Shown piece by piece: positions 1,833 through 44,662 of a stretch of DNA of 64,000 bases. Where the stretch lies: positions 744,001-808,000 of the forward strand of contig NC_015673.1 of NCBI RefSeq assembly GCF_000177535.2, written 5' to 3'. The stretch's first letter is position 1; each line of letters starts with the position of its first letter. The stretch comes from Corynebacterium resistens DSM 45100 (GTDB lineage: Bacteria > Actinomycetota > Actinomycetes > Mycobacteriales > Mycobacteriaceae). The position numbers and the translations under genes were made by a program. Under the pieces are notes generated by a model. That model was not told the origin of the DNA, searched no databases, and saw nothing but the letters and a program-made list of their open reading frames with translations.

Positions 1833-4800
1833 CTAATCTTCTTCGCGACGCCGACGCAAGAGCATCAGCGCCCCGCCTGCCAGCAATGCTGCGAGCGCAA
1901 TTCCCGCCGTGATGGCCAGACCAGATAGGCCAGTCATTGCCAATTGGCCGGAACGCGACGAGTTATTCGCGGAGCCATTGGCGTCAATTCCTTCGCGGCC
2001 ACCTTGGTTTCCTCCGCTGACCCCGTTTGTGATTGGGGATTGCGGGTTGGAACCCGTGCTTGGTTGGGCTGGTCGGGTGACATTGGCCCCGGAATCTCCA
2101 GGCGTTCCAGGCTTGCCTGGCTTGCCCGAACCGTTGGACTTGCCTGGCTGACTTGAGCCCTGCTTTCCGGGTTCGTTCGGCTTAGAAGTGCCTGGCTTGC
2201 CTGGCTTGCCTGGCTTGCCTGGCTGACTTGGGGTGGCCGAACCTGGCAGGGTGGTGCCGGGGCGTGGTCCCATGGGGGTGCTGCTGCCCAAAGCTCCACC
2301 AGCGATTGCGCCGATAATCCCAGCGATGATTCCCTTATCAAGCGGATCGATACTCGACCCATCTGGGTTGCCGGGTTGCTCTGGCGACGGTGTTTCGGTG
2401 CCCGGGGTGGTGGTACCTGGGGTGTCGGTGCCTGGCGTGGTTGTACCCGGTGCGGTGGTGCCCGGTGTGGTTGTGCCCGGTGTGGTTGTACCCGGTGCGG
2501 TGGTGCCTGGCGTGGTTGTACCCGGTGCGGTGGTGCCTGGCGTGGTTGTACCCGGTGCGGTGGTGCCTGGCGTGGTTGTGCCCGGCGCGGTGGTGCCTGG
2601 GGCGTCGGTACCTGGCGTGGTTGTACCCGGTGTGGTTGTGCCTGGGGCGTCGGTACCTGGCGTGGTTGTACCCGGTGCGGTGGTGCCCGGCGTGGTTGTG
2701 CCCGGCGCGTCGGTACCTGGCGTGGTTGTACCCGGTGCGGTGGTGCCTGGCGTGGTTGTGCCCGGCGCGTCGGTACCTGGCGTGGTTGTGCCCGGCGTGG
2801 AGGTCTCCGCTGGCTTGGAGGTAACAGTGATCTGGACGGTGTCGATGACCTTTCCTTCGGCATCCTTAACCGTCACGATGATGACAGAACCAGGGGTAGC
2901 ATTCTCGTCGACCGAAACCGTGATGGAACCATTCGGGTTTAGGGTGGCTGTGCCCGGGCCTTCGGTACTAATGGTGGTTCCTGGCTGAACGGGCCCACCG
3001 GTATTAGGAACAGTTACGGTTGCACCTGCTGCTGCACCACCGCCAGTCCAAATGGGGCTAACTCCGTTGAGCGGCGCGGGCGTCACGTTGATTTCCACCC
3101 AAGCAGTATGCGGATCAGCACCCGGTACTGTGGCGATCACTGGCACGCGAATGAGAGTACCCGGCTGTGCATCCTTTGGAACGGTTACGGTAACCGCACC
3201 ATCCGTACCGATCTTCATATCGGTTGGCGCGCCTGGTCCCGGGGTGAACGTGGTTCCCGCTGGCATATCAACAGTCTTGCCATTGTCAGTGAAGACTGGA
3301 GGCAAGGTCGTGATCTGTTTGCCAGGGCTCGCCTGAATAGAGCCGTAGACAGGTACCGCAGTAGAGGCAGACGGATCCTCAGGTGCGGCCGTGCTCTCGA
3401 CGACGAAAGGTACGTTGACAGTTTCCGTCGTGCCATCTGGGTAGGTCACAACCACCGGGATGTAGTAGGTACCAGGCTTCTTCCAGCTTGGGACCTCCAT
3501 ATGGATCTCACCGGTTTGCGGGTTGATGGACTTCGCCGAGAACGGATCCTGGTCCCCAAGTGCAAACGTCGTTCCAGCAGGGAACGGCGCACCGGACGCT
3601 TCCTTCGGTGCCGGAATATCGTGCACGTCGTTTGGTTTCACAGTTGTATCGGTGACGTAGACCGGCTGGTAGACATCAACGTCGTGTGTTGTGCTCGGCA
3701 CTGTCGGGTTACCGACGCTGACCGGAGCGTAGACGATATCCTCGGAACCATCTGGGTACTTCACAACGACAGGAACAACGTAGTTACCTGGAGGAACATC
3801 AGCCCCCGGCTGGATAGTGATGGATCCATCAGGATTCACCGTTGCCCATTCAGGTGCATTCTGCCCCTTCGTGAAGGTTGTGCCGCCACCAGGCACGGTA
3901 CGATTCTCCCAAACGGGCGCAGTTGTGACTGGTTCACCACCGGCATTCACCGTGGTTGTTGGGTAGGAGGCATGGTAACGGGTGTTGTCCGTTTGCACAC
4001 TCGGTGTGGTTGTTCCCGAGTTGGTTACTTCAATAGGAACAGAGATGTAGTCCTTCAAACCATCCGGGTAGGTCACGACCACAGGCATGTAGTACGTGCC
4101 CGGAGCCACACTCTCTGGTGGGTTCGCGATTACCGTCCCTTCTGGGGTGACTGTCGCCCATGATGGGTACGCGACACCTGGGGAGAAGGTGGTTGGTCCG
4201 GCCGGGGATTTATCGTTCTCCCATTTCGGAGACACGCTGAGTTCCTTGCCTGCTTCCACAGAGTTGTTGGTTGGGTAAACAGGCTGGTAGAGCTCTGGAT
4301 TGGTCTTTGATGGAACCGCAGGTGCTTCGACGATGACCGGCACGTTCACGATCTCAGTTGTCCCATCTGGGTAGGTCACCACGACAGGAACGATGTAGGT
4401 ACCAGCAGGTACGTTGTCCCCTGGCTTGACATCAATGGACCCATCAGGATTCACAGCCGCCCAAGATGGTGACGTGTCGCCCGCGGTGAACTTCACATCA
4501 CCATTGGGTTTGTTGTCGCCCCAATTAGGTGCGCTTACCGTAGCGGTTTCCCCAGCCTTCACTGTGGTCGGTGCGCCGTAGGTGGGCTGGTAAGTGCTTG
4601 CATCCACGACGACGGGAGGCACGGACGTTCCTGGAGCGGCAGAAACTACGACAGGAACTGTGACGACTTCCTGGGAACCGTCCGCATAGGTGACCTCTAC
4701 CGGAATTACGTAGGTACCGGCCGCCAGCTTTTCGTCGGCTGCAAAGGTGATGGAGCCATCTTGGTTAACAGTAACTCCTGCGGGAGCGCCGGTTGTGGCC

Positions 4801-7800
4801 GCGAAGCTTACGGGCTGGGTTGGCTTGAGGTCGTTCTCCCAAGAAGGAGCAGCGATGTCGACGGTTTTGCCGGCCTCAACCTTGGTGTCCTGCGTATACA
4901 CCGGAGTGTAAGTCTGTTGCTTGGAAGGAGCTGTCACTGCCACGGGAACGTTGATGCGCTCATTCGTTCCATCCGGATAGGTGACAACAACTGGAACCAA
5001 GTAATCGCCAGCGGGCACGTCCGCGCCAGGCTTGACTGTGATGGAACCATCAGGGTTCACAGTCATCCACGAAGGGGCACCGTCTGCTAATGCGAACTTC
5101 GCGCCGTCTGGAGCCTTACCATCTGCCCACTGAGGAGCTGGGATGTTAACCGGATCATTCGATCCAGCATGCGCCGTTGTATCGGTTGGGTACACCGGCT
5201 GATAGGACGATGACTGGGTTAATGCTGGAGGTGTTTGGACGCCCTCAACATGTACCGGAACGGTCACAACGTCACGTGAGCCATCTGGGTAAATAGCGCG
5301 AACGTGAAGAACCACATCCGAGGTTGTCACATCGGCCGGTGGGTTCAAGGAAATGGATCCGTCGGAGTTGACCTTCGCCCAGTCGGGGAGAAGTGCACCT
5401 TCGAATGTCGTGCCTGCCGGAAGCGGACTGTTGTTGGCATCCGTTGGGACGGGAACCACCGAGGAATCTCCGGCCTTTACAGCGTTGTCCTGCTGATACT
5501 TCGCGTCTACCGAGTTGGTAGTCGGATCAGTCGTCTGATCTGCCGGTTTAGCTGTCACCGAGAGCTTCATCGTCACTGTGTCAGTGGTGCCATCTGGATA
5601 GGTGACCTTCACGGTAACTGGGTAGTCGCCCGGCGTTACGTCCGCACCAGGTGCCAAAGATACGGTGCCATCGGAGTTGACGGTGACCCACGGGTAGCTG
5701 TCCCCGGTTTGTTCGAAGGTCGTGCCGGAAGGCATCGAAGTTTCGTCTGCGTTCAGGGGAGTAGGGATCGTGCGTTCGGCACCTTGCTGAATGCTGACAT
5801 CAGGATACGTCGGTGCATTCGCCTCGTTATCGGGAACCTCTGGATCCGGTGTTACGGAAGGCGCTGACACAGTCACTTTAACGTTGACTACTTCGGAAGT
5901 GCCATCGGTATATGTGACCTGAATCGGAACGGAGTATTCTCCCGGTGCTACATTTTCGTCAGCTTTCAGCTGGAGTGACCCGTCCTCATTGACGGTGACC
6001 CACGCAGGGGTATCTCCCGCAGCGGTAAACTTGGTGCCAGCCGGCATCGCGGCGCCATCCGTATTCAGAGGTGCAGGAACCTCATGTGGTACGCCTTGAA
6101 CAACTGATTCTGGCGTGTAGGTCGGCTGGTAGGCATCGACCAGCTTGCCTTCCGGAGCTGGCGGCGCGGGAACCTCGGCGACCTTGACAGCAGCGGTCAC
6201 AGTCTCGGACGTTCCATCAGGGTATGTGACAAGAACCTTGATCGTGGTATCGCCGGTTGGCGTGGAATCCGTTGGATTTACCGTGATCGTGCCATCTGGA
6301 TTGACCGTTGCCCACGCAGGTACATCGGCACCAGGGGCGAACTTGGTCCCTTCAGGCAATGGTTGACCGTTGTCGAGGGGTGCCGGCAAAGTTGCGGTAT
6401 CGCCCTGCAAGACAGTGCTGTCGGCATATACCGGATTGAAAGTTTGATCATTCGGTGCAGCCGGTGGCTGTGGTGCTGGGGTCACCTTAATTGTGGTGGT
6501 CACACGCTCGGTGGTGCCATCTGGATAGGTCACCACTACCGAAACCGGATAGTCACCGGGGGCGACATCCGTGCCGGGCTTAGCAGTCAGCGAACCGTCT
6601 TCACCGATCGTTACCCAGCCTGGAGCGGGGGCATCTAATGCGAACTTCGTGCCCGTCGGCAGGGCCAGACCAGTGGAGTCAACTGGTGCCGGAATATTCT
6701 GTTCAGCACCTTGTACGACGGAGTTGTCTTGGTATTTCGGGTCGTAAACCCTGTTCTGTGGAACGCTCGGCGCCGGCGGGGTTGGGCTGACCGTCACTGT
6801 GGCCGCAATGGACTCGGTAGAGCCATCTGGGTAAGTAACTGTGATTGGAACTGCGTAGTCACCAGGCTTCACGTTGGAACCTGGCTTGACAGTGAGAGAG
6901 CCGTCGGGATTGACCTGAATCCAATCAGGTACCTTCGCGCCGTCCGCGTTTCCGCCGGTGAACTTGGTACCTGCAGGTGGGGCAGTACCGTCAAAGTTCA
7001 ACGGGGAGGGAACTTCCGCGGTGGTGCCAGGGAGCACAGTGATGGGATCGTAGACAGGTTCGTTGGTCGTGGCTTGCCGCGCGGGCGCAGGTGCGGTCAC
7101 GTTGATAGTGGTCGTGATCGTTTCCTTGGAGCCATCTGGGTACGTCACAACGACCGGTACGGTGTACTCGCCTGCGGCTGTGCCCTTTGGCGGAGTGAAG
7201 TCCAGAGAACCGTCAGAGTTGACCTTTACCCAATCGGGTGCATCCGGACCTGCAGTGAAGGTGCTTCCTGTTGGAGGGAGGGAGCCATTGGAGTTCAATG
7301 GTGCAGGAACTGACGCCGCGCTGCCAGCGACCACAGTGGTCGGCTGGTAACTCGGATCATTCGTCTCCGCTAAAGGTGCAGCCTTAGGCGGAGCCTGCTT
7401 GACATCAACCACTACATCGATGAGGTCATTGGAACCATCTGGGTAAACCACGACGACCTGCATAGTCACGGGACCGGCTGGCACATCGGTACCAGGAGCT
7501 GCAGAGATGGATCCATCGGCATTGAGGGTTGCCCACGCAGGGAAATTCGGGCCCGGAACGAACTGGGATCCAGTGGGTACCGCCGAGCCGTCCTTGTTAA
7601 TAGGCAATGGGATCAGAATCTGAGCGCCTTGCACCACAGCAGTGTCTTGGTAGTCAGGCTCATTCGTAGCATTGAAGCGTTGAGCCGGGGCGATCGGAGG
7701 AGCGATCTTTAGTGAAACGTCATCAACGTGATTCTTGACCACGGTGCCATCGGGAAGCGTGATGTCGTATGTCAGTTTCACGTTATCGGCAGTTCCAGCA

Positions 7801-9836
7801 ACAGTGGGGGTTCCAGTGATAGTGCCCGTAGCCGGGTTGAAGCTCAAACCAGCTGGGAGGTTCTCAGCAGACTTGAGTGTGTACGTGGATCCTTCTGGAA
7901 GGCCAGTTGGTTCGACCTTCTGCACGTACGCATCGCCCACGACGCCATTGACCAGTGGCACATCAGTAATCGAAATCGGAACCGTGTTATTGAGCTTGAG
8001 TGTCTGTCCATCAGCGGTAGTAATGGTGGAAACGACCGCTACATCCCAGGTTCCCGCTGTGGTTGGCGTACCGGTGATCTTTCCGGTGGCAGGGTCCAAC
8101 GTCAGTCCGGGAGGCAGATTGGAAGCAGCGTAGTTGACCTTTGCGCCGGCCGGAATGGACTGGGCGATGGAACCCGAATAGGCGTCGCCCACAGAACCAA
8201 CAGGCGTGACTGCCTTAAACGGCAGGGCAATGAATGAGTCAGCTGCGAACTCTTGGCCCGCCTTATCCAACAAGCTGGCGGTGTACACCTGGCTCGTTGC
8301 CAGTTTTGGATCGACGGTGTAGGTGGATTTCGGGAGATTGCCGATACCGTCGGTGATGAGTTTCTCTTCTTTGACAACGTTGCCCTGTTCATCCCACCAC
8401 TTCACGGTGTAGGGAGTATTCGGGACCAACCCGGTCGCCGAAGTATATGCCGTATCGCCAGGACGGGCGGGATTGTTGGAGTTGTCATAGTTCACCACAT
8501 CGAACTTCGGTGTGCCCGGCCGCATCGGGAAGTTTACGTTCGAGTAGTTAAACAGCACGCCTGCGGCACCAACCGGACCAGTGGAATCGGTGAGATCCGT
8601 ATCCGTGATGTTTTGGAACATCGGAACCTGCATCGAAGCCATGGTGACGTTCTGAGTCGTTGCCGATGTGGGGAAGACATACATGTACTTGGCATTGATG
8701 TGCTTTGAACGTGCTTGCGACTGGTACCACGTGCCATCAGTCGGAGAATTGGCAACCTTGCCGTACAGACTCTTGTCGGCAGATATGCCGGCGTTGCTGT
8801 AGCTATTACCGTAAATGCCGTTGAACTGTAGTAAGTAGTTGCCGTTGGCATCGGTGAACCCGCGAACGGTTTCCGCGATGCCTGATTGACCGGTTTCCTT
8901 CTGGTAGTCAGACAGGATTTGCTGTTGGGCTGCTTGGAAGTCCTTCTGTGACGCCTTAGGGTTCTTCCCGAGCCACGCATCGAATCGGCGGGCGACCTCA
9001 TCGTTGACGTAGGAGCCGACAACCTCCACATTTGGGGCGGGCACATCGCCTAGTCCAGGGTTGTATTGAGGGTAGCCGGTAGCACCCCACGTGTGGGCTT
9101 GATCCCAGTAAATCGTTCCGCGAACCCAACCGCCATCATCCTGGATTTTCGAGGAAGAATCTGTTCGAGTCGCTGGTTCGCGCCACTGCCAGTCCGTAGG
9201 TAGCTCCTGAAGGGAGATCGACCAGTTGTAAACGTGGTTTGCTCCGCTGGCGAGGTTCCACGCGGCATTATCGCGTTTCGTGGAAGTGCCGATGGGGTAG
9301 GACTCGGTGTGAGAAATGGTGTACCCATTGGGCGCTACTGCCCAGACCCGCAGCTGCTCGCCAGGGATTGCCTCGAAAGTGTGCACCTTGCCCTTGGCAT
9401 CGGTCCACGGCTTCATGAGGATGGAATAACGACCATCCTGCCCAGCGAGGTTCTTGGACGTAGTGGTGTAAGTGGGGGAAACTGCACCATCTTTGTCAAC
9501 GAAGTAGGCCTTGATCGTGACACCGTTTTTGAATTCGTCACCCGAGTTATAGAAATTTTGCAGGCCGCCGCGATCTACAAAAATTTGTCCATTGACCGTG
9601 TACTGCCCTTGCCACGTGCCATCAGAGGCAATCTCATTAACGGCTGTGTTGCTGATCTGTGTGGAATGGGAATCGTGGGGTTCGAAAGATTGAACAACTA
9701 CCGTGCCGGAGGTAATCACGGCAACGATGGCGCCTGCGGCTAGCACGGCGCGCATCCGATCTTTGAATATGAACCTACGTACAGCCGGTGCAACGTGATT
9801 GCGATGGCGGAAGTGACGGGAACGAGTTGAGGGCAT
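1833..9836 (-). CDS. giant sortase-anchored surface protein with Rib/alpha-like (YPDG) repeats
   Basis: This 2667-residue protein is the largest in the window. A long basic N-terminus precedes a hydrophobic signal segment (about residues 30-50, AVLAAGAIVAVITSGTVVV). Residues about 60-560 form a non-repetitive, Trp/Tyr-rich region that probably carries any adhesive function. Two putative Ig-like (He_PIG) modules follow, with the PAGLSFNPATGTITGTP type motif. About 15 imperfect Rib/alpha-like repeats of roughly 95-105 residues come next, most ending VTYPDGTxExV (nt 3060-7700). Then come about 27 copies of PGTxx (nt 2390-2803), a PGKPGKPG stretch, and an LAMTG sorting motif (nt 1929-1943) followed by a membrane helix and RRRREED. 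Class A sortase should link it to peptidoglycan. The likely role is an adhesin or stalk; the ligand is unknown. RBS GAAAGGA precedes the ATG. Confidence 0.93.
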   Translation of the reverse strand: MPSTRSRHFRHRNHVAPAVRRFIFKDRMRAVLAAGAIVAVITSGTVVVQSFEPHDSHSTQISNTAVNEIASDGTWQGQYTVNGQIFVDRGGLQNFYNSGDEFKNGVTIKAYFVDKDGAVSPTYTTTSKNLAGQDGRYSILMKPWTDAKGKVHTFEAIPGEQLRVWAVAPNGYTISHTESYPIGTSTKRDNAAWNLASGANHVYNWSISLQELPTDWQWREPATRTDSSSKIQDDGGWVRGTIYWDQAHTWGATGYPQYNPGLGDVPAPNVEVVGSYVNDEVARRFDAWLGKNPKASQKDFQAAQQQILSDYQKETGQSGIAETVRGFTDANGNYLLQFNGIYGNSYSNAGISADKSLYGKVANSPTDGTWYQSQARSKHINAKYMYVFPTSATTQNVTMASMQVPMFQNITDTDLTDSTGPVGAAGVLFNYSNVNFPMRPGTPKFDVVNYDNSNNPARPGDTAYTSATGLVPNTPYTVKWWDEQGNVVKEEKLITDGIGNLPKSTYTVDPKLATSQVYTASLLDKAGQEFAADSFIALPFKAVTPVGSVGDAYSGSIAQSIPAGAKVNYAASNLPPGLTLDPATGKITGTPTTAGTWDVAVVSTITTADGQTLKLNNTVPISITDVPLVNGVVGDAYVQKVEPTGLPEGSTYTLKSAENLPAGLSFNPATGTITGTPTVAGTADNVKLTYDITLPDGTVVKNHVDDVSLKIAPPIAPAQRFNATNEPDYQDTAVVQGAQILIPLPINKDGSAVPTGSQFVPGPNFPAWATLNADGSISAAPGTDVPAGPVTMQVVVVYPDGSNDLIDVVVDVKQAPPKAAPLAETNDPSYQPTTVVAGSAASVPAPLNSNGSLPPTGSTFTAGPDAPDWVKVNSDGSLDFTPPKGTAAGEYTVPVVVTYPDGSKETITTTINVTAPAPARQATTNEPVYDPITVLPGTTAEVPSPLNFDGTAPPAGTKFTGGNADGAKVPDWIQVNPDGSLTVKPGSNVKPGDYAVPITVTYPDGSTESIAATVTVSPTPPAPSVPQNRVYDPKYQDNSVVQGAEQNIPAPVDSTGLALPTGTKFALDAPAPGWVTIGEDGSLTAKPGTDVAPGDYPVSVVVTYPDGTTERVTTTIKVTPAPQPPAAPNDQTFNPVYADSTVLQGDTATLPAPLDNGQPLPEGTKFAPGADVPAWATVNPDGTITVNPTDSTPTGDTTIKVLVTYPDGTSETVTAAVKVAEVPAPPAPEGKLVDAYQPTYTPESVVQGVPHEVPAPLNTDGAAMPAGTKFTAAGDTPAWVTVNEDGSLQLKADENVAPGEYSVPIQVTYTDGTSEVVNVKVTVSAPSVTPDPEVPDNEANAPTYPDVSIQQGAERTIPTPLNADETSMPSGTTFEQTGDSYPWVTVNSDGTVSLAPGADVTPGDYPVTVKVTYPDGTTDTVTMKLSVTAKPADQTTDPTTNSVDAKYQQDNAVKAGDSSVVPVPTDANNSPLPAGTTFEGALLPDWAKVNSDGSISLNPPADVTTSDVVLHVRAIYPDGSRDVVTVPVHVEGVQTPPALTQSSSYQPVYPTDTTAHAGSNDPVNIPAPQWADGKAPDGAKFALADGAPSWMTVNPDGSITVKPGADVPAGDYLVPVVVTYPDGTNERINVPVAVTAPSKQQTYTPVYTQDTKVEAGKTVDIAAPSWENDLKPTQPVSFAATTGAPAGVTVNQDGSITFAADEKLAAGTYVIPVEVTYADGSQEVVTVPVVVSAAPGTSVPPVVVDASTYQPTYGAPTTVKAGETATVSAPNWGDNKPNGDVKFTAGDTSPSWAAVNPDGSIDVKPGDNVPAGTYIVPVVVTYPDGTTEIVNVPVIVEAPAVPSKTNPELYQPVYPTNNSVEAGKELSVSPKWENDKSPAGPTTFSPGVAYPSWATVTPEGTVIANPPESVAPGTYYMPVVVTYPDGLKDYISVPIEVTNSGTTTPSVQTDNTRYHASYPTTTVNAGGEPVTTAPVWENRTVPGGGTTFTKGQNAPEWATVNPDGSITIQPGADVPPGNYVVPVVVKYPDGSEDIVYAPVSVGNPTVPSTTHDVDVYQPVYVTDTTVKPNDVHDIPAPKEASGAPFPAGTTFALGDQDPFSAKSINPQTGEIHMEVPSWKKPGTYYIPVVVTYPDGTTETVNVPFVVESTAAPEDPSASTAVPVYGSIQASPGKQITTLPPVFTDNGKTVDMPAGTTFTPGPGAPTDMKIGTDGAVTVTVPKDAQPGTLIRVPVIATVPGADPHTAWVEINVTPAPLNGVSPIWTGGGAAAGATVTVPNTGGPVQPGTTISTEGPGTATLNPNGSITVSVDENATPGSVIIVTVKDAEGKVIDTVQITVTSKPAETSTPGTTTPGTDAPGTTTPGTTAPGTTTPGTDAPGTTTPGTTAPGTTTPGTDAPGTTTPGTTTPGTDAPGTTAPGTTTPGTTAPGTTTPGTTAPGTTTPGTTAPGTTTPGTTTPGTTAPGTTTPGTDTPGTTTPGTETPSPEQPGNPDGSSIDPLDKGIIAGIIGAIAGGALGSSTPMGPRPGTTLPGSATPSQPGKPGKPGKPGTSKPNEPGKQGSSQPGKSNGSGKPGKPGTPGDSGANVTRPAQPSTGSNPQSPITNGVSGGNQGGREGIDANGSANNSSRSGQLAMTGLSGLAITAGIALAALLAGGALMLLRRRREED
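2390..2803 (-). repeat. 15-nt tandem repeats encoding the Pro-Gly-Thr stalk
   Basis: About 27 copies of a 15-base unit encode PGTTT, PGTTA or PGTDA pentapeptides in the wall-spanning stalk of the surface protein. The variants (TTT/TTA/TDA) alternate in blocks, suggesting past slippage or unequal recombination. All units are multiples of three, so copy-number change alters stalk length without a frameshift. Confidence 0.9.
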
Positions 9837-10122
9837 GAGGGTCCTTTCAGTGCAAAGGTAGATGTGATTGCCGTGTTAAATCTTCTGGGGTAATCAAGAA
9901 AGCTGAGGCACGGAATTCACCGTCTCTAGGGTTAGTGGGAACACTAAACAAGACGGGTCAAGTCTAGTTGGGATGATGAGTGGATACAACAGCGAAAATG
10001 AGGAAAATATATGACTCTATAGCTGTTTCAAAAGGATTCTAACAGCAGGCAATAAGGGTTAAGTGACAAAAGTGTGTCTGGGATCGGGGATTTTTAGGTT
10101 CTGACCTGTAGGGTAGCGTGAA

Positions 10123-10145
10123 ATATATGCTTTGGGAGCATATAT
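10123..10145. repeat. IS-conserved stem-loop (9-bp stem)
   Basis: ATATATGCT and AGCATATAT flank a 5-nt loop. The same hairpin occurs at the same place in both intact IS1249-like copies (28746-28770 and 44566-44590), between the end of the element and the transposase start. Its conservation in a diverged relic suggests a function, perhaps blocking translation of read-through transcripts. Confidence 0.7.
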
Positions 10146-10215
10146 CTGGCCTCAACACGGTAAATCCCCGGTGTGGCTGCCGGTCTGTGGTAGTAGGCGG
10201 TGGTGTGGCGGCTCA

Positions 10216-10350
10216 ATGCCAAAGAACCGACCACGCTGCTACTGCGGCGGTGATACCAAACGCAATGGAACAACCGGCAAAGGCACTACCCGATGGCGAT
10301 GTAAGGCCTGTGGAACCTCAGTCAATAAAAGTCGGCCAGATGTCACAGTA
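10216..10350 (+). pseudogene. transposase N-terminal fragment (zinc ribbon)
   Basis: The translation from the ATG at 10216 starts MPKNRPRCYCGGDTKRNGTT and matches the N-terminal zinc-ribbon of the intact IS1249-like transposases (CxC...CKxCG) with a few substitutions. Similarity stops near codon 45 (about 10350), after which the reading frame runs briefly into unrelated sequence and a stop. It cannot encode a working transposase. The fragment marks the left junction of the cargo. Confidence 0.8.
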
Positions 10351-10412
10351 GCAGACCACCAGCCCCGTTAGACCCCATGCGTAGCTATATCCCCACTATG
10401 CACAGTCCTTCA

Positions 10413-10477
10413 CTTGCACACTTTGCAAGCATTAGACTTGCATGTACAGCAAGTGTTACACTTGCCTTAGTTGCAAG
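10413..10477. promoter_or_regulatory. three tandem operator-like palindromes, CTTGC-N7-GCAAG
   Basis: Palindromes of the form CTTGC-N7-GCAAG lie at 10413-10429, 10437-10453 and 10461-10477. Their starts are exactly 24 bases apart, so each is also a 24-bp direct repeat. They sit 30 bases upstream of the start codon of the membrane-protein gene and would overlap its promoter. The simplest reading is a set of binding sites for the winged-helix regulator encoded second in the operon. This is inference from layout. Confidence 0.7.
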
Positions 10478-10506
10478 CCAGTGAAGTTGGCGTTAGGGGA
10501 AGAATA

Positions 10507-10911
10507 ATGAGCGACGACCTTAAGATCATTCACGACGTTCAAGAACGCACCACGTGGACGCAGAGCTGGTGGGCGGTGGCGATAGTGGCGCTTGGCGTCG
10601 GCGGCGGTCTCGCGCTAACCAAGCTGTCATGGTGGTACGGCCTCGCGGTTTTTGTACCGACGTTCGTTCTGGGCTATCTCCTCAAGGATAAGATTGCAAA
10701 CCCATTCGTGCGCCTCGATCCAAATATGGGTCCGAGCAACGATCGCGCAACCTGGTCACGAGTATTGCTACCCGGTGCAATGATCATGTCTACAGCACCG
10801 ACGCCGGATTCGTGGCCGTGGATGATTGTCTGCGGCGTCGTTGTCTCTACGGCGACGGCATGGATGTTGTATGAGAACCGCAACGCCGCCGTAAAGGGCG
10901 TCAATGTCTAA
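10507..10911 (+). CDS. small membrane protein of unknown function (cassette cargo gene 1)
   Basis: I do not recognise a named family. The 134-residue protein has a short cytosolic start (MSDDLKIIHDVQERTTWTQS) and four predicted membrane segments: about residues 21-39, 42-60, 82-95 and 102-121. A short charged tail follows. The ATG at 10507 follows the AGGGGAAGAATA purine stretch. The upstream in-frame start at 10471 would lie within the third operator palindrome. It overlaps the winged-helix gene by 8 bases, so the two are translationally coupled. Partners of this size next to PadR/MarR-like regulators are often membrane sensors or small transporter-like proteins, but nothing here fixes the role. 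The gene is enclosed by IS ends. Confidence 0.75.
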   Translation: MSDDLKIIHDVQERTTWTQSWWAVAIVALGVGGGLALTKLSWWYGLAVFVPTFVLGYLLKDKIANPFVRLDPNMGPSNDRATWSRVLLPGAMIMSTAPTPDSWPWMIVCGVVVSTATAWMLYENRNAAVKGVNV

Positions 10912-11233
10912 GGATCCTTCACCACGCCCAGCAAAGCTGGATCCGGTCATCCACCCCATCAATCGGCTTAAAATTTGTGCCACGCTGTTCCATTCAGGCG
11001 CAACCGGCGGCAGGCAGATGAAATTCGCCGTGCTTGCAGAGCTCACCGAGCTTCCTGCCGATACGCTTTCCAAGCAGTTGAAACATCTTGAGGACAGCGG
11101 CTATATCAGCCGCACCCGCGAATATGGCTCCACGCGCGCGAAAGACGCCGTCTGGGTCGCGTTGACCCAGACTGGAACAGAAGCCTATGCACAGCACGTT
11201 GCGGCGCTTAAAGCCATGACAGAGGGCTCATAG
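10904..11233 (+). CDS. winged-helix transcriptional regulator (cassette cargo gene 2)
   Basis: This 109-residue protein is a winged-helix DNA-binding domain of the MarR/ArsR-like kind. IHPINRLKICATLFHSG is followed by the helix-turn-helix FAVLAELTELPADTLSKQLK, then HLEDSGYISRTRE and the wing, ending in TQTGTEAYAQHVAALKAM. Proteins of this type bind palindromic operators as dimers. Its start overlaps the end of the membrane-protein gene by 8 bases. The three CTTGC-N7-GCAAG sites upstream of the operon are the obvious candidate targets, implying autoregulation (inference). The effector is unknown. Confidence 0.85.
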   Translation: MSKDPSPRPAKLDPVIHPINRLKICATLFHSGATGGRQMKFAVLAELTELPADTLSKQLKHLEDSGYISRTREYGSTRAKDAVWVALTQTGTEAYAQHVAALKAMTEGS

Positions 11234-11242
11234 ATTGCGCAG

Positions 11243-11361
11243 CTACTGCGTAATGTGCTGCCACAACTGCGGAAAGTCGAGGTAGCCGTCACTCCCCAGG
11301 AAGTGCCCACCGTTCTCAATGGTGGTGAGCGGAGCCGAGAAAACATCGGCAAGTGTGACGG
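11243..11361 (-). pseudogene. C-terminal fragment of an RBBP9/YdeN-type serine hydrolase
   Basis: On the minus strand, about 39 codons read AVTLADVFSAPLTTIENGGH, then FLGSDGYLDFPQLWQHITQ and a stop. The GGHFLGSDGY segment resembles the C-terminal catalytic-histidine region of RBBP9/YdeN alpha/beta hydrolases. The frame meets the transposase C-terminal fragment at about 11362, so the N-terminal body with the nucleophile is missing. It is probably debris of a gene once carried with, or disrupted by, the IS. Family assignment rests on a short motif. Confidence 0.55.
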
Positions 11362-11565
11362 CTGTATGTAAAAACAGAACTGCCCGACGATCCCGTAGAA
11401 ATCGCCAGACAGTCCAACTGGGGCCAGGATCAACTCGCCAAAGTACAAACCCTGACTCACAACGAGAACCAAGCCGACCACGAAACAGGACGACCAGCCC
11501 TCTACGACAACGCTATCGACACCAACTACGCCCATTCAATCGGCGTCCAAAAAGGCCAAATCTAG
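11362..11565 (+). pseudogene. transposase C-terminal fragment
   Basis: These codons read LYVKTELPDDPVEIARQSNW and on to a TAG at 11563. They align end to end with the last 67 residues of the intact IS1249-like transposases (YLKTELPGDPIEIARQSNWG), with scattered substitutions. No start is linked to it. It marks the right junction of the cargo, and the right terminal inverted repeat follows at about 11587-11610. Confidence 0.8.
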
Positions 11566-11701
11566 CCCAAGCGACACGCCGAGCCAGACACACTTTTTGA
11601 CCCTTAACCCGATTTCTAGAATCTTTAACGTACTCTTTAACGTACCCGGCGATTAAAGCAATGTACCCCGTAACCTGTTTATGCAGGTCACGGGGTATTT
11701 T

Positions 11702-11778
11702 TGGGGTGGCTGACGGGACTCGAACCCGCGACACCCAGGATCACAACCTGGTGCTCTACCAGCTGAACTACAGCCACC
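11702..11778 (-). tRNA. tRNA-His (anticodon GTG)
   Basis: The minus strand folds as a cloverleaf: acceptor GTGGCTG/CAGCCAC with an encoded extra 5' G opposite the discriminator C, a hallmark of tRNA-His. The anticodon loop is TTGTGAT and the T-arm is GCGGGTTCGAGTCCCGT. CCA is encoded. Confidence 0.96.
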
Positions 11779-27427: not shown

Positions 27428-27497
27428 CTTACTCGGGTGCAGGCTATTTTTGGGGTTAAGCGACAAAATGTGTGTCTGCTATCGGCGTGTCGCGGGG

Positions 27498-28676
27498 TTA
27501 GATGTGGCCTTTTTGGATGCCGATTGAGTGTGTGTACTCGGTATCGATACCGTTGTCGTAGAGGGCTGGTTGTCCTGTTTCATAGTCGGCTTGGTTCTCG
27601 TTTCGGGTCAGGGTTGTAACTTTGGCGAGTTGGTTCTGGCCCCAGTTGGACTGTCTGGCGATTTCTATTGGATCGCCAGGCAGTTCCGTTTTCAGATACA
27701 GCCACCAATCCAGCATTTTGCGTTGGTGCTCACCGCGTCTGCCGCGATGAGTTCTTGCAAGGAGCTTCAGCTGGGCGTTGATGCCGCCTTCAAGACTGTT
27801 GGTGGTGGATTTGATCCGGTGCGGCTCGAGCACACCTTTCGGGGGCTTGAGGTAGACAAACAGCAGGTCATTGCGCCACAGGTGGTTGAGACTGTTGTAG
27901 GCCTTGCGCACGTTGACATGGGTCCACACGAGTGTGTCTTTTGCTGTTTTCGGGTCTTTGACCTGTGTCTTTTCGTTGAGCCAATCCTTGTAGAGCGTGT
28001 GAAACTCTTGCAGTTGTGCACCCCATTGTGCAGCCTCGTCCAGGGTGGTGATGCGGGTGAGTTTCAGCGCGAGTCGGTAGATGGTGCGGCCAGCATCAGT
28101 GCGTGGTCGTGAGGTGGTGTAGCGGCGTACTCTGCGTTGGGCGTGCACGAGGCAGCGTTGGATTTTGGTGTTTGGCCAGCACGTTTTAATTGCGCTTGTG
28201 GCTCCTCGGCCACCGTCGATCACAGCGATCAACGGTGCTTCGATGCGCTCGAGCAGGCGCTTGTAGTCGTGTGTGGTTTCTTGTTTGCACCAGTGCCAGG
28301 CGATGACGTGGTCGAGCGTTGCCGCCACGATCAGACAGCCACCTGCGGTGTAGGTGCCGTCGATGAAGATCTGGTCGTAGACCCTGCCTGTATGGCCGAT
28401 GGTCGGGTCAGGCACGTCAACCAGCCAAAAGGCATCGAATTTGCGCTGCAGCGTACGTGTCGAGCAGCTCATGTTGCCGGCGATCGCCGCAAGACTGGTC
28501 CCGGCGGTCAGGTGCTGGATGAACGCACGAAATAGGGCTGCGTTGGTGATATCGCTGCGCTGCTTGGTCAGTGAAGCACCGCAGATTTTGCACCGCCACC
28601 GGGTCGTCCCGTTGCTGGTGGTGCCGTTTCGTTTCATATCGCCGCCACAATGGCAGCGTGGTCGGTTCTTTGGCAT
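27498..28676 (-). CDS. IS1249-like transposase, copy 1
   Basis: This 392-residue transposase starts at the ATG at 28676 (MPKNRPRCHCGGDMKRNGTT). An in-frame TTG at 28778 would add 34 residues read through the conserved hairpin and is less likely. The N-terminal zinc ribbon is CxC-x14-18-CKICG, followed by a helix-turn-helix (GTSLAAIAGNMSCSTRTLQR). The catalytic part has a mutator-like DDE core: Asp in YDQIFIDGTYTAGG, Asp in APLIAVIDGGRGATSA, and Glu probably in TTNSLEGGINAQLK. It cuts and joins the terminal repeats of the element. It is intact and so potentially active. Confidence 0.92.
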   Translation of the reverse strand: MPKNRPRCHCGGDMKRNGTTSNGTTRWRCKICGASLTKQRSDITNAALFRAFIQHLTAGTSLAAIAGNMSCSTRTLQRKFDAFWLVDVPDPTIGHTGRVYDQIFIDGTYTAGGCLIVAATLDHVIAWHWCKQETTHDYKRLLERIEAPLIAVIDGGRGATSAIKTCWPNTKIQRCLVHAQRRVRRYTTSRPRTDAGRTIYRLALKLTRITTLDEAAQWGAQLQEFHTLYKDWLNEKTQVKDPKTAKDTLVWTHVNVRKAYNSLNHLWRNDLLFVYLKPPKGVLEPHRIKSTTNSLEGGINAQLKLLARTHRGRRGEHQRKMLDWWLYLKTELPGDPIEIARQSNWGQNQLAKVTTLTRNENQADYETGQPALYDNGIDTEYTHSIGIQKGHI

Positions 28677-28745
28677 TGGGCAACCGAACCACCGCTCCGT
28701 AGCACACCATGGCAGCCACACCGGGGATTTTCGCAAGAGAGGGCC

Positions 28746-28770
28746 AATATATGCTTTTGGAGCATATATT
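28746..28770. repeat. conserved stem-loop in IS copy 1
   Basis: AATATATGCT and AGCATATATT form a perfect 10-bp stem with a TTTGG loop, 70 bases upstream of the transposase ATG. The relic at 10123 and copy 2 carry the same hairpin. Confidence 0.8.
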
Positions 28771-28845
28771 TTCCGCAAACGCGGAGTTCAGAGCATGAAA
28801 ATCAACGATTCCGGACACACATTTTGTCGCTTAACCCTATTTTTG

Positions 28846-43261: not shown

Positions 43262-43317
43262 CACGATCTGGAGGGTTAAGCGACAAAATGTGTGTCTGCT
43301 ATCGGCGTGTCGCGGGG

Positions 43318-44496
43318 TTAGATGTGGCCTTTTTGGATGCCGATTGAGTGTGTGTACTCGGTATCGATACCGTTGTCGTAGAGGGCTGGTTGTCCTGTTT
43401 CATAGTCGGCTTGGTTCTCGTTTCGGGTCAGGGTTGTAACTTTGGCGAGTTGGTTCTGGCCCCAGTTGGACTGTCTGGCGATTTCTATTGGATCGCCAGG
43501 CAGTTCCGTTTTCAGATACAGCCACCAATCCAGCATTTTGCGTTGGTGCTCACCGCGTCTGCCGCGATGAGTTCTTGCAAGGAGCTTCAGCTGGGCGTTG
43601 ATGCCGCCTTCAAGACTGTTGGTGGTGGATTTGATCCGGTGCGGCTCGAGCACACCTTTCGGGGGCTTGAGGTAGACAAACAGCAGGTCATTGCGCCACA
43701 GGTGGTTGAGACTGTTGTAGGCCTTGCGCACGTTGACATGGGTCCACACGAGTGTGTCTTTTGCTGTTTTCGGGTCTTTGACCTGTGTCTTTTCGTTGAG
43801 CCAATCCTTGTAGAGCGTGTGAAACTCTTGCAGTTGTGCACCCCATTGTGCAGCCTCGTCCAGGGTGGTGATGCGGGTGAGTTTCAGCGCGAGTCGGTAG
43901 ATGGTGCGGCCAGCATCAGTGCGTGGTCGTGAGGTGGTGTAGCGGCGTACTCTGCGTTGGGCGTGCACGAGGCAGCGTTGGATTTTGGTGTTTGGCCAGC
44001 ACGTTTTAATTGCGCTTGTGGCTCCTCGGCCACCGTCGATCACAGCGATCAACGGTGCTTCGATGCGCTCGAGCAGGCGCTTGTAGTCGTGTGTGGTTTC
44101 TTGTTTGCACCAGTGCCAGGCGATGACGTGGTCGAGCGTTGCCGCCACGATCAGACAGCCACCTGCGGTGTAGGTGCCGTCGATGAAGATCTGGTCGTAG
44201 ACCCTGCCTGTATGGCCGATGGTCGGGTCAGGCACGTCAACCAGCCAAAAGGCATCGAATTTGCGCTGCAGCGTACGTGTCGAGCAGCTCATGTTGCCGG
44301 CGATCGCCGCAAGACTGGTCCCGGCGGTCAGGTGCTGGATGAACGCACGAAATAGGGCTGCGTTGGTGATATCGCTGCGCTGCTTGGTCAGTGAAGCACC
44401 GCAGATTTTGCACCGCCACCGGGTCGTCCCGTTGCTGGTGGTGCCGTTTCGTTTCATATCGCCGCCACAATGGCAGCGTGGTCGGTTCTTTGGCAT
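43318..44496 (-). CDS. IS1249-like transposase, copy 2
   Basis: The predicted 392-residue protein is identical to that of copy 1: zinc ribbon from MPKNRPRCHCGGDMKRNGTT, helix-turn-helix, and the catalytic Asp residues in FIDGTYTAGG and AVIDGGRGA. It reads opposite to ndk, so read-through from ndk would produce antisense to this gene, since its terminator is split. The ATG at 44496 is preferred over the TTG at 44598, as for copy 1. Confidence 0.92.
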   Translation of the reverse strand: MPKNRPRCHCGGDMKRNGTTSNGTTRWRCKICGASLTKQRSDITNAALFRAFIQHLTAGTSLAAIAGNMSCSTRTLQRKFDAFWLVDVPDPTIGHTGRVYDQIFIDGTYTAGGCLIVAATLDHVIAWHWCKQETTHDYKRLLERIEAPLIAVIDGGRGATSAIKTCWPNTKIQRCLVHAQRRVRRYTTSRPRTDAGRTIYRLALKLTRITTLDEAAQWGAQLQEFHTLYKDWLNEKTQVKDPKTAKDTLVWTHVNVRKAYNSLNHLWRNDLLFVYLKPPKGVLEPHRIKSTTNSLEGGINAQLKLLARTHRGRRGEHQRKMLDWWLYLKTELPGDPIEIARQSNWGQNQLAKVTTLTRNENQADYETGQPALYDNGIDTEYTHSIGIQKGHI

Positions 44497-44565
44497 TGGG
44501 CAACCGAACCACCGCTCCGTAGCACACCATGGCAGCCACACCGGGGATTTTCGCAAGAGAGGGCC

Positions 44566-44590
44566 AATATATGCTTTTGGAGCATATATT
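44566..44590. repeat. conserved stem-loop in IS copy 2
   Basis: This is the same AATATATGCT/AGCATATATT hairpin as in copy 1, upstream of the transposase start. Confidence 0.8.
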
Positions 44591-44662
44591 TTCCGCAAAC
44601 GCGGAGTTCAGAGCATGAAAATCAACGATTCCGGACACACATTTTGTCGCTTAACCCGATCT

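Follow-up and report, generated by a model that had tools for sequence, protein, structure and literature searches.

A transposase-less cassette with IS1249-type ends around a captured chromosomal operon in Corynebacterium

The 64,000-nucleotide stretch of the Corynebacterium resistens DSM 45100 genome analyzed here (NC_015673.1, positions 744,001 to 808,000; hereafter called the window) contains, at positions 10056–11610, a cassette that lacks a transposase and in which insertion sequence (IS) ends of the IS1249 type enclose a captured chromosomal operon. The unit consists of three parts: a left IS end of about 296 bp, a captured segment of 1002 bp, and a right IS end of about 257 bp. Very probably, the unit is a mobile insertion cassette (MIC) that belongs to the IS1249 group within the IS256 family, and whose captured operon was inserted with 8-bp target duplications and spread between species.

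Both ends of the unit lie in the correct order and orientation relative to the IS1249-type elements of 1385 bp. Positions 1–249 of the unit are collinear with the IS1249-type copies of its own genome at 74–79% identity (best E 6e-52), and positions 1305–1555 at 86–89% (best E 2e-89), which bears out the original prediction, made from the window alone, that both inverted repeats and both ends of the transposase gene survive in place. The left end (10056..10351, + strand) contains the beginning of the lost transposase gene, and the right end (11354..11610, +) its final part. A survey of the interior open reading frames (ORFs) found no transposase ORF between the ends, where the gene is present as end fragments only; with IS ends, foreign cargo and no working transposase, the predicted architecture of a mobile insertion cassette holds. 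The whole unit is present once in the C. resistens genome (designated G000; one contig of 2,601,311 bases). The closest IS copies in that genome are five outside the window, with 78–79% identity to the left end and 88–89% to the right end, while the two copies inside the window and the others in the genome have 74% and 86%, in agreement with the prediction that the end fragments have diverged from the intact window copies. The right end is 88.8% identical to IS-B and 85.7% to IS-A. The left end is 85–86% identical to the IS left ends of the genomes G015 and G195, and 95.9–97.2% identical to those of the seven other cassettes that retain it; the right end is 92–97% identical to those of the seven other cassettes in which it is complete or almost complete. 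The terminal inverted repeats of the cassettes are 27 bp long and close to those of intact IS1249. In the window copy, the left repeat (10056..10082, +) is one base shorter than in the other cassettes and has probably decayed: in an ungapped comparison it matches the right repeat (11584..11610, −) at 16 of 27 positions, as against 23–24 of 27 in the six other complete cassettes.

How widely is the unit distributed? We searched 242 Corynebacterium genomes, C. resistens included, and scored the two best candidates per genome. The captured segment was strongly matched in 19 of them: ten with IS ends, and nine without (two of the nine partial). The IS-ended unit, whole or truncated, thus occurs in 10 of 242 genomes and at seven loci; the ten genomes are C. 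resistens, Corynebacterium sp. Marseille-P3884 (G171), NML140438 (G161), a C. glucuronolyticum metagenome-assembled genome (G064), MSK297 (G188), C. macginleyi (G102), G219, G001, G107 and G033. Both ends are retained in seven (C. resistens, G171, G219, G001, G107, G188 and G102). The G161 cassette lacks its first 123 and last 17 bases, that of G033 lacks everything after unit position 1182, and that of G064 comprises unit positions 214–1331 only. For the locus count, flanks of up to 3 kb were compared all against all. The cassettes of G107, G188 and G102 and the window copy have one site in common, with tRNA-His and orn in the right flank; the other six cassette flanks have nothing in common with this site or with each other, except for one 38-base match. 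Among 397 evenly drawn genomes of the order, the cargo matched only C. resistens itself at E 1e-8, and a search of a genome-contig collection found 10 loci, all in Corynebacterium. A plasmid origin was rejected, as the cargo DNA and the membrane protein that it encodes were unmatched in 72,556 plasmid records; the whole unit matched nine records, through IS pieces covering at most 32% of it. A phage origin was likewise rejected, with no match in 50,697 phage records and none confirmed in viral contigs.

The flanks of the cassettes carry the 8-bp duplications TTTGGGCG/TTTGGGCG in G171, ACCTTTAA/ACCTTTAA in G001, and ATGACTAG/ATGACTAG at one site in G107, G188 and G102, and the flanks in G219, TGAAAATT/TGAAAATC, match at 7 of 8 positions. 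All six complete cassettes other than the window copy therefore have duplications, five of 8/8 and one of 7/8, at four sites. When the right 8-mer was slid by 1–399 bases as a control, at most 6 of 8 positions matched in each of the six cassettes. The full-length IS1249-type copies behave similarly, as 27 of 37 have a target duplication of 7 or 8 of 8. The original prediction had named as the mark of mobility that one unit recurs at several sites flanked by 8-bp duplications, and this is what the genus contains. The pattern that it had named as the mark of decay, with the cargo confined to a conserved locus and IS fragments in this strain alone, is absent: the conserved locus without IS ends is found in separate genomes, and the IS-ended copies lie at seven loci. 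Moreover, the G219 site is unoccupied in G043, where the joined flank is continuous across the junction (92% over 491 columns), the match extends 91 bases to the left of the target, and the target reads TGAAAGTC. The same site is also unoccupied in a paralogous repeat of G219 itself (L121), which extends 22 bases to the left of the target and has a single TGAAAATC; a second such repeat (L123), which extends just 2 bases beyond the target on that side, was not counted. The window copy has the flanking 8-mers GGCAATAA and GATTTCTA, which match at 2 of 8 positions, and the absence of a target duplication had been recognized correctly. This copy retains the tRNA side of the site minus 13 bases, the duplication being among those lost, and its left flank differs; it looks old and is probably immobile. 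The duplications and sites constitute a sequence record of past moves, and any present-day activity of the cassette would lie beyond it.

The source of the cargo can be recognized in other genomes of the genus. A donor-type operon without IS-end matches lies beside a convergent serine hydrolase gene in seven genomes: C. minutissimum ATCC 23348 (G115), C. aurimucosum DE0410 (G073), HMSC078H07 (G155), HMSC036D02 (G159), G150, G116 and G015. The surrounding gene row (families c3, c8, c4, c5 and c6) is conserved in all seven. The hydrolase has about 190 residues in five of them, is 79% identical over 189 residues in G150 (tblastn), and has 109 residues by gene calling in G015; only its last part is left in the window and in G171. 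The captured segment (10352..11353, +) aligns to G150 over unit positions 297–1298 with 89.6% identity, and the other donor-type alignments have 73–78% and are shorter on the left. Six of the seven loci of the G150 type, and G150 itself, end at unit position 1298, which is window position 11353. The IS homology complements this segment: in three IS relatives it stops at about unit position 292 and begins again near 1302, so that the capture junctions are located to a few bases. At the left capture junction (10347..10352), IS homology extends to about 10347 and donor homology begins at 10352, with GTAGC(A) in common. The left junction is identical in all ten cassettes, and the right junction in nine, that of G033 being cut short. 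These identical junctions point to one capture, which would have founded all ten cassettes.

The cassettes are far more alike than their hosts. Over the captured segment, the window copy is 98.9, 98.4, 94.7, 94.2, 92.1, 92.0, 91.5, 90.9 and 88.6% identical to the nine others; the lowest value is that of G033 with an unrelated tail included, and becomes 95.0% over unit positions 1–1182. In contrast, the trigger factor proteins of the same nine genomes are 56–61% identical. The cassette has therefore moved between species.

The insertions share a further property. At three of the four duplication-bearing sites, the right end of the cassette lies 78–106 bp behind a tRNA gene (Pro, Tyr or His), and in the window the 3′ end of tRNA-His (11702..11777, −) faces the right end at about 92 bp. 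Among the 37 full-length IS1249-type copies, 14 lie 45–116 bp behind a tRNA gene (L240, L241, L244, L247, L249, L250, L251, L253, L254, L255, L259, L273, L274 and L276, with L244 being the same copy as window 27453–28837). Twelve of these 14 have the right end towards the tRNA, and none of the 37 has its nearest tRNA ahead at such a distance. By a rough expectation from the four tRNA genes in 64 kb, less than 1% of the window positions lie within 120 bp behind one (4 × 120/64,000). The 37 copies come from a non-random sample of 40 regions (18 of C. resistens, two of G033 and the 20 best-scoring hits of eight other genomes), of which three were set aside for want of a full-length match and one because a contig end truncates it, while another contained two copies; the count covers IS1249-type copies alone. 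As the preference for the zone behind tRNA genes is common to the cassettes and plain IS1249, it supports mobilization in trans. No tRNA was found within the 14-kb stretch surrounding the G219 site. A rule of insertion into terminator hairpins was rejected: 4 of 19 IS sites, and 0 of 4 cassette sites, exceed 95% of random window sites in folding strength. None of the papers listed in a literature search was recognizable as treating IS1249 insertion behind tRNA genes, and the text of PMC8304765 does not contain the word "tRNA".

Which transposase could move the cassette? The window contains two intact IS1249-family elements as possible helpers, at 27453..28837 (−; target duplication TATTTTTG; 116 bp behind tRNA-Gly) and 43273..44657 (−; target duplication GATCTGGA; the joined flanks would form a terminator-like hairpin, inside which the element sits). 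Both are 1385 bp long with perfect 8-bp duplications, and their transposase belongs to the IS1249 family (NF033544, E 1.9e-159). Open IS1249-type transposases of 402–426 residues are present in C. resistens, G033, G107 and G188; the stop counted in the second transposase type precedes the long open frame. G064 and G161 have transposase pieces only. We infer that the cassette would be mobilized in trans by an IS1249-family transposase; in the IS256 family, a circle with joined ends is the expected intermediate (two-step pathway, PMC3299598). Other IS1249-ended elements were noticed as well. Internally deleted IS1249 relatives resembling miniature inverted-repeat transposable elements (MITEs) occur at L193:2132-2594, which is G015:C1:12131-12593 (463 bp), and at L198:2001-2559 in G221 (about 560 bp). 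A second IS1249-ended unit without a transposase, L199:1192-2870 in G106, surrounds a RelBE-like pair that looks by eye like a toxin–antitoxin system.

These observations suggest the following course of events. An IS1249-like element would have lost the middle of its transposase gene, with 1002 bp of Corynebacterium chromosome in its place: an operon of a membrane protein and a MarR-type regulator, its putative operators, and the severed end of the convergent hydrolase gene, from a locus of the type still present in C. minutissimum and C. aurimucosum, among others. An IS1249-family transposase made elsewhere in the cell may then act on the two ends of the cassette, which would duplicate 8 bp of target on insertion and would often land directly behind a tRNA gene. 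The cassette has moved between species, at tRNA-His apparently inside an integrative island, and its cargo genes seem to be retained by purifying selection.

Several observations weigh against this interpretation. The window copy itself is without a duplication, and its left repeat is damaged. Searches of 41, 41 and 61 genomes for unoccupied sites of the G001, G171 and tRNA-His (G107) insertions, respectively, found none; the matches were mainly to tRNA genes. No genome has two cassette copies among the two best candidates scored. No close intact IS1249 transposase was found in G171, G219, G001 or G102 (best 62, 47, 64 (partial) and 43%), and the helper is therefore gone or distant there. In the tree of the captured DNA, the donor-type G150 copy is not set apart from the cassettes (2 changes), which is probably explained by recombination in the cargo. 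Finally, the G171 copy departs from the window copy at 14 places within its last 100 bases, and its right repeat is like that of IS-A, so that exchange with other IS copies may occur.

This last point bears on the possibility that the cassettes replaced resident IS1249 copies by homologous recombination through the common ends, and that the duplications were inherited from the older IS. The IS ends, at 250–300 bp, are long, the cargo alleles do recombine, and the G171 right end is unlike those of the other cassettes. However, replacement needs a prior IS at each of the four sites. The ends of the G219 and G001 cassettes are mutually identical at every compared position, yet only 74–91% identical to the two reference IS types and 85–86% to the nearest left ends found, and neither genome has a close intact IS1249 transposase; an unoccupied site in a relative has so far been found for G219. 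We therefore regard such replacement as improbable.

Might integrative islands at tRNA genes instead be the sole carriers of the cassette, without transposition of its own? At the tRNA-His site, G188 and G102 are 99.7% identical over 3 kb on the island side, as compared to about 74% on the orn side; the cassette therefore seems to have travelled in the island there. In G107, about 650 bases separate the cassette from a relaxase gene, and tRNA genes are close to three of the four sites. Nevertheless, the island accounts only for the tRNA-His group: the 8-bp duplications abut the terminal repeats at all four sites, the flanks of the different sites share no sequence beyond the single 38-base match, no tRNA gene was found over the 14 kb around the G219 site, and plain IS1249-type copies have the same tRNA preference. 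Passive carriage alone is thus very unlikely. In the regions L064, L065 and L066, the island lies at tRNA-His beside orn with the cassette at the island end, and the relaxase is in G107; by eye, an IS3-like element is present in the island of G188 and G102.

Decay of an IS1249 copy around a native operon, immobile as a unit, would suit the window copy taken alone, with its diverged ends and missing duplication, and the G106 unit looks like such a case (no duplication by eye, not found again as a whole unit), but the same junctions in a unit found at seven loci in ten genomes, with duplications at four sites and one unoccupied site, rule it out for the cassette with only the slightest residual doubt.

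Next to the evidence for a mobile insertion cassette, the cargo itself deserves description. The first gene (10507..10911, +) encodes a small membrane protein of 134 residues, and the second (10904..11233, +), with an 8-bp overlap, a winged-helix regulator of the MarR/HTH_34 type of 109 residues. Both ORFs are intact, as predicted; the prediction that these two genes make up the cargo was incomplete, because a third gene is also present, namely the 3′ fragment of the serine hydrolase (PF06821; 11231..11353, −), severed by the right capture junction and with longer homologues at the donor-type loci. The regulator matches HTH_34 (PF13601, E 1.6e-10), and its structure model is a winged helix (predicted local distance difference test score (pLDDT) 85.7) that matches MarR-family structures in the PDB, with low E-values for a few (8 at 0.001 or better); a sequence search found no solved structure matching it. 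For the membrane protein, no family of Pfam, NCBIfam or PADLOC reached the cut-off, and its structure model is poor (pLDDT 48). Defence-system models gave only weak winged-helix matches. Our best guess for the role of the membrane protein is an envelope or small-molecule response.

Upstream of the operon, three dyads of the form ACTTGC-N7-GCAAGY start at 10412, 10436 and 10460 (10412..10478, +), exactly 24 bp apart, and are probable operators of the regulator. The whole window has four such dyads, as compared to a mean of 2.7 in shuffled sequences, which is not above chance; three of the four are packed within 67 bases, and similar dyads lie upstream of the donor-type operon copies. A sigma-70 promoter scan found none. 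The dyads suggest that the operon is autorepressed by its own regulator.

Both cargo genes are open in all ten cassettes. The ratios of nonsynonymous to synonymous substitution rates among the ten, about 0.20 for the membrane protein and about 0.28 for the regulator, are rough because the cargo is recombinant, and the genes seem constrained, consistent with purifying selection. Between the G219 and G001 cassettes, the ends are identical, and 33 of the 44 differences between the copies lie in unit positions 751–900. The cargo alleles of G219, G001, G188 and G102 (L061, L062, L065 and L066) differ in discrete tracts at around unit positions 700–900, while the IS ends are 99–100% identical within the pairs G219/G001 and G188/G102; this combination indicates recombination inside the cargo. 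A distant paralogue of the cargo pair (L077, G033:C1:1970510-1971100), with a stop in the membrane-protein part, lies beside the orn neighbourhood in G033. Immediately left of the cassette, in the place of the island of other genomes, the window has a very large, repeat-rich surface-protein-like gene of 2667 residues (1833–9836, −), with an LAMTG sorting-type tail by eye.

How does the unit compare with known systems? According to PMC3913671, a MIC consists of a pair of inverted repeats, has no transposase gene close by and is usually flanked by a target duplication; MIC231 of Bacillus cereus is recounted there as mobilized in trans by the IS231A transposase, and studies of MIC231 and IS231 cassettes (Chen 1999, De Palmenaer 2004) appear among the references of PMC2266710. 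Like MIC231, the Corynebacterium cassette has IS ends with passenger genes in place of the transposase (PMC3913671). Unlike MIC231, whose ends are of IS231 (IS4 family) and whose passenger is a peptidase or fosfomycin-resistance gene, it has IS1249 (IS256-family) ends, a regulator and membrane-protein operon, and an identifiable donor-type locus, and its mobilization in trans is what the sequences suggest. The mic-qnrD of Proteeae plasmids, as described in PMC3913671, is similar in its size of about 1.5 kb, inverted repeats, cargo, missing transposase and target duplication, but it has 24-bp repeats, a 2-bp duplication and a resistance cargo on small plasmids, whereas the present cassette is chromosomal, with an 8-bp duplication and ends of a known IS group. 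In Tn5432, a composite transposon that carries erm(X), foreign DNA is moved by the same IS group in Corynebacterium (PMC8304765); there, two complete IS1249 copies flank the cargo, while the cassette has a single pair of ends and no transposase. The MITE-like G015 copy resembles the cassette in its IS1249-type ends and internal deletion, but measures only 463 bp and has no cargo.

The cassette very probably belongs to a known class, the mobile insertion cassettes, with a regulatory operon rather than a resistance gene as its cargo. It has the terminal inverted repeats of an IS group, no transposase, and unrelated passenger genes; a duplication of the parental 8-bp length flanks six of the seven complete cassettes, at different sites, and an unoccupied site is known for one of four. 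A helper transposase was found in some of the hosts only. Since no transposase of its own lies inside the unit, it is not a transporter IS (tIS), and with one partial IS end per side it is not a composite transposon of the Tn5432 type. The parent belongs to the IS1249 group and IS256 family by its NF033544 transposase and 8-bp duplication. Our literature search, which left most subscription papers outside, found no paper joining "mobile insertion cassette" with "Corynebacterium", and in the portions seen of the texts where "mobile insertion cassette" and IS256 co-occur, no IS256-family MIC was described.

For one MIC in one genus, the donor-type chromosome, the capture junctions, the landing sites with their duplications, and one unoccupied site are all visible. 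A bolder proposal, to which we give somewhat less than even credence, is that IS1249-family transposases steer insertions into a narrow stretch directly behind tRNA genes, a safe site in every bacterium, and that the operon exploits this zone in trans as a genus-wide cassette kept by selection, with its alleles reshuffled by recombination and its ends almost constant. Since erm(X) travels with elements of this IS group in Tn5432, it matters how IS1249 acquires DNA and where it puts it. Should the preference for sites behind tRNA genes be confirmed, it would provide a simple, testable rule for the landing of these elements.

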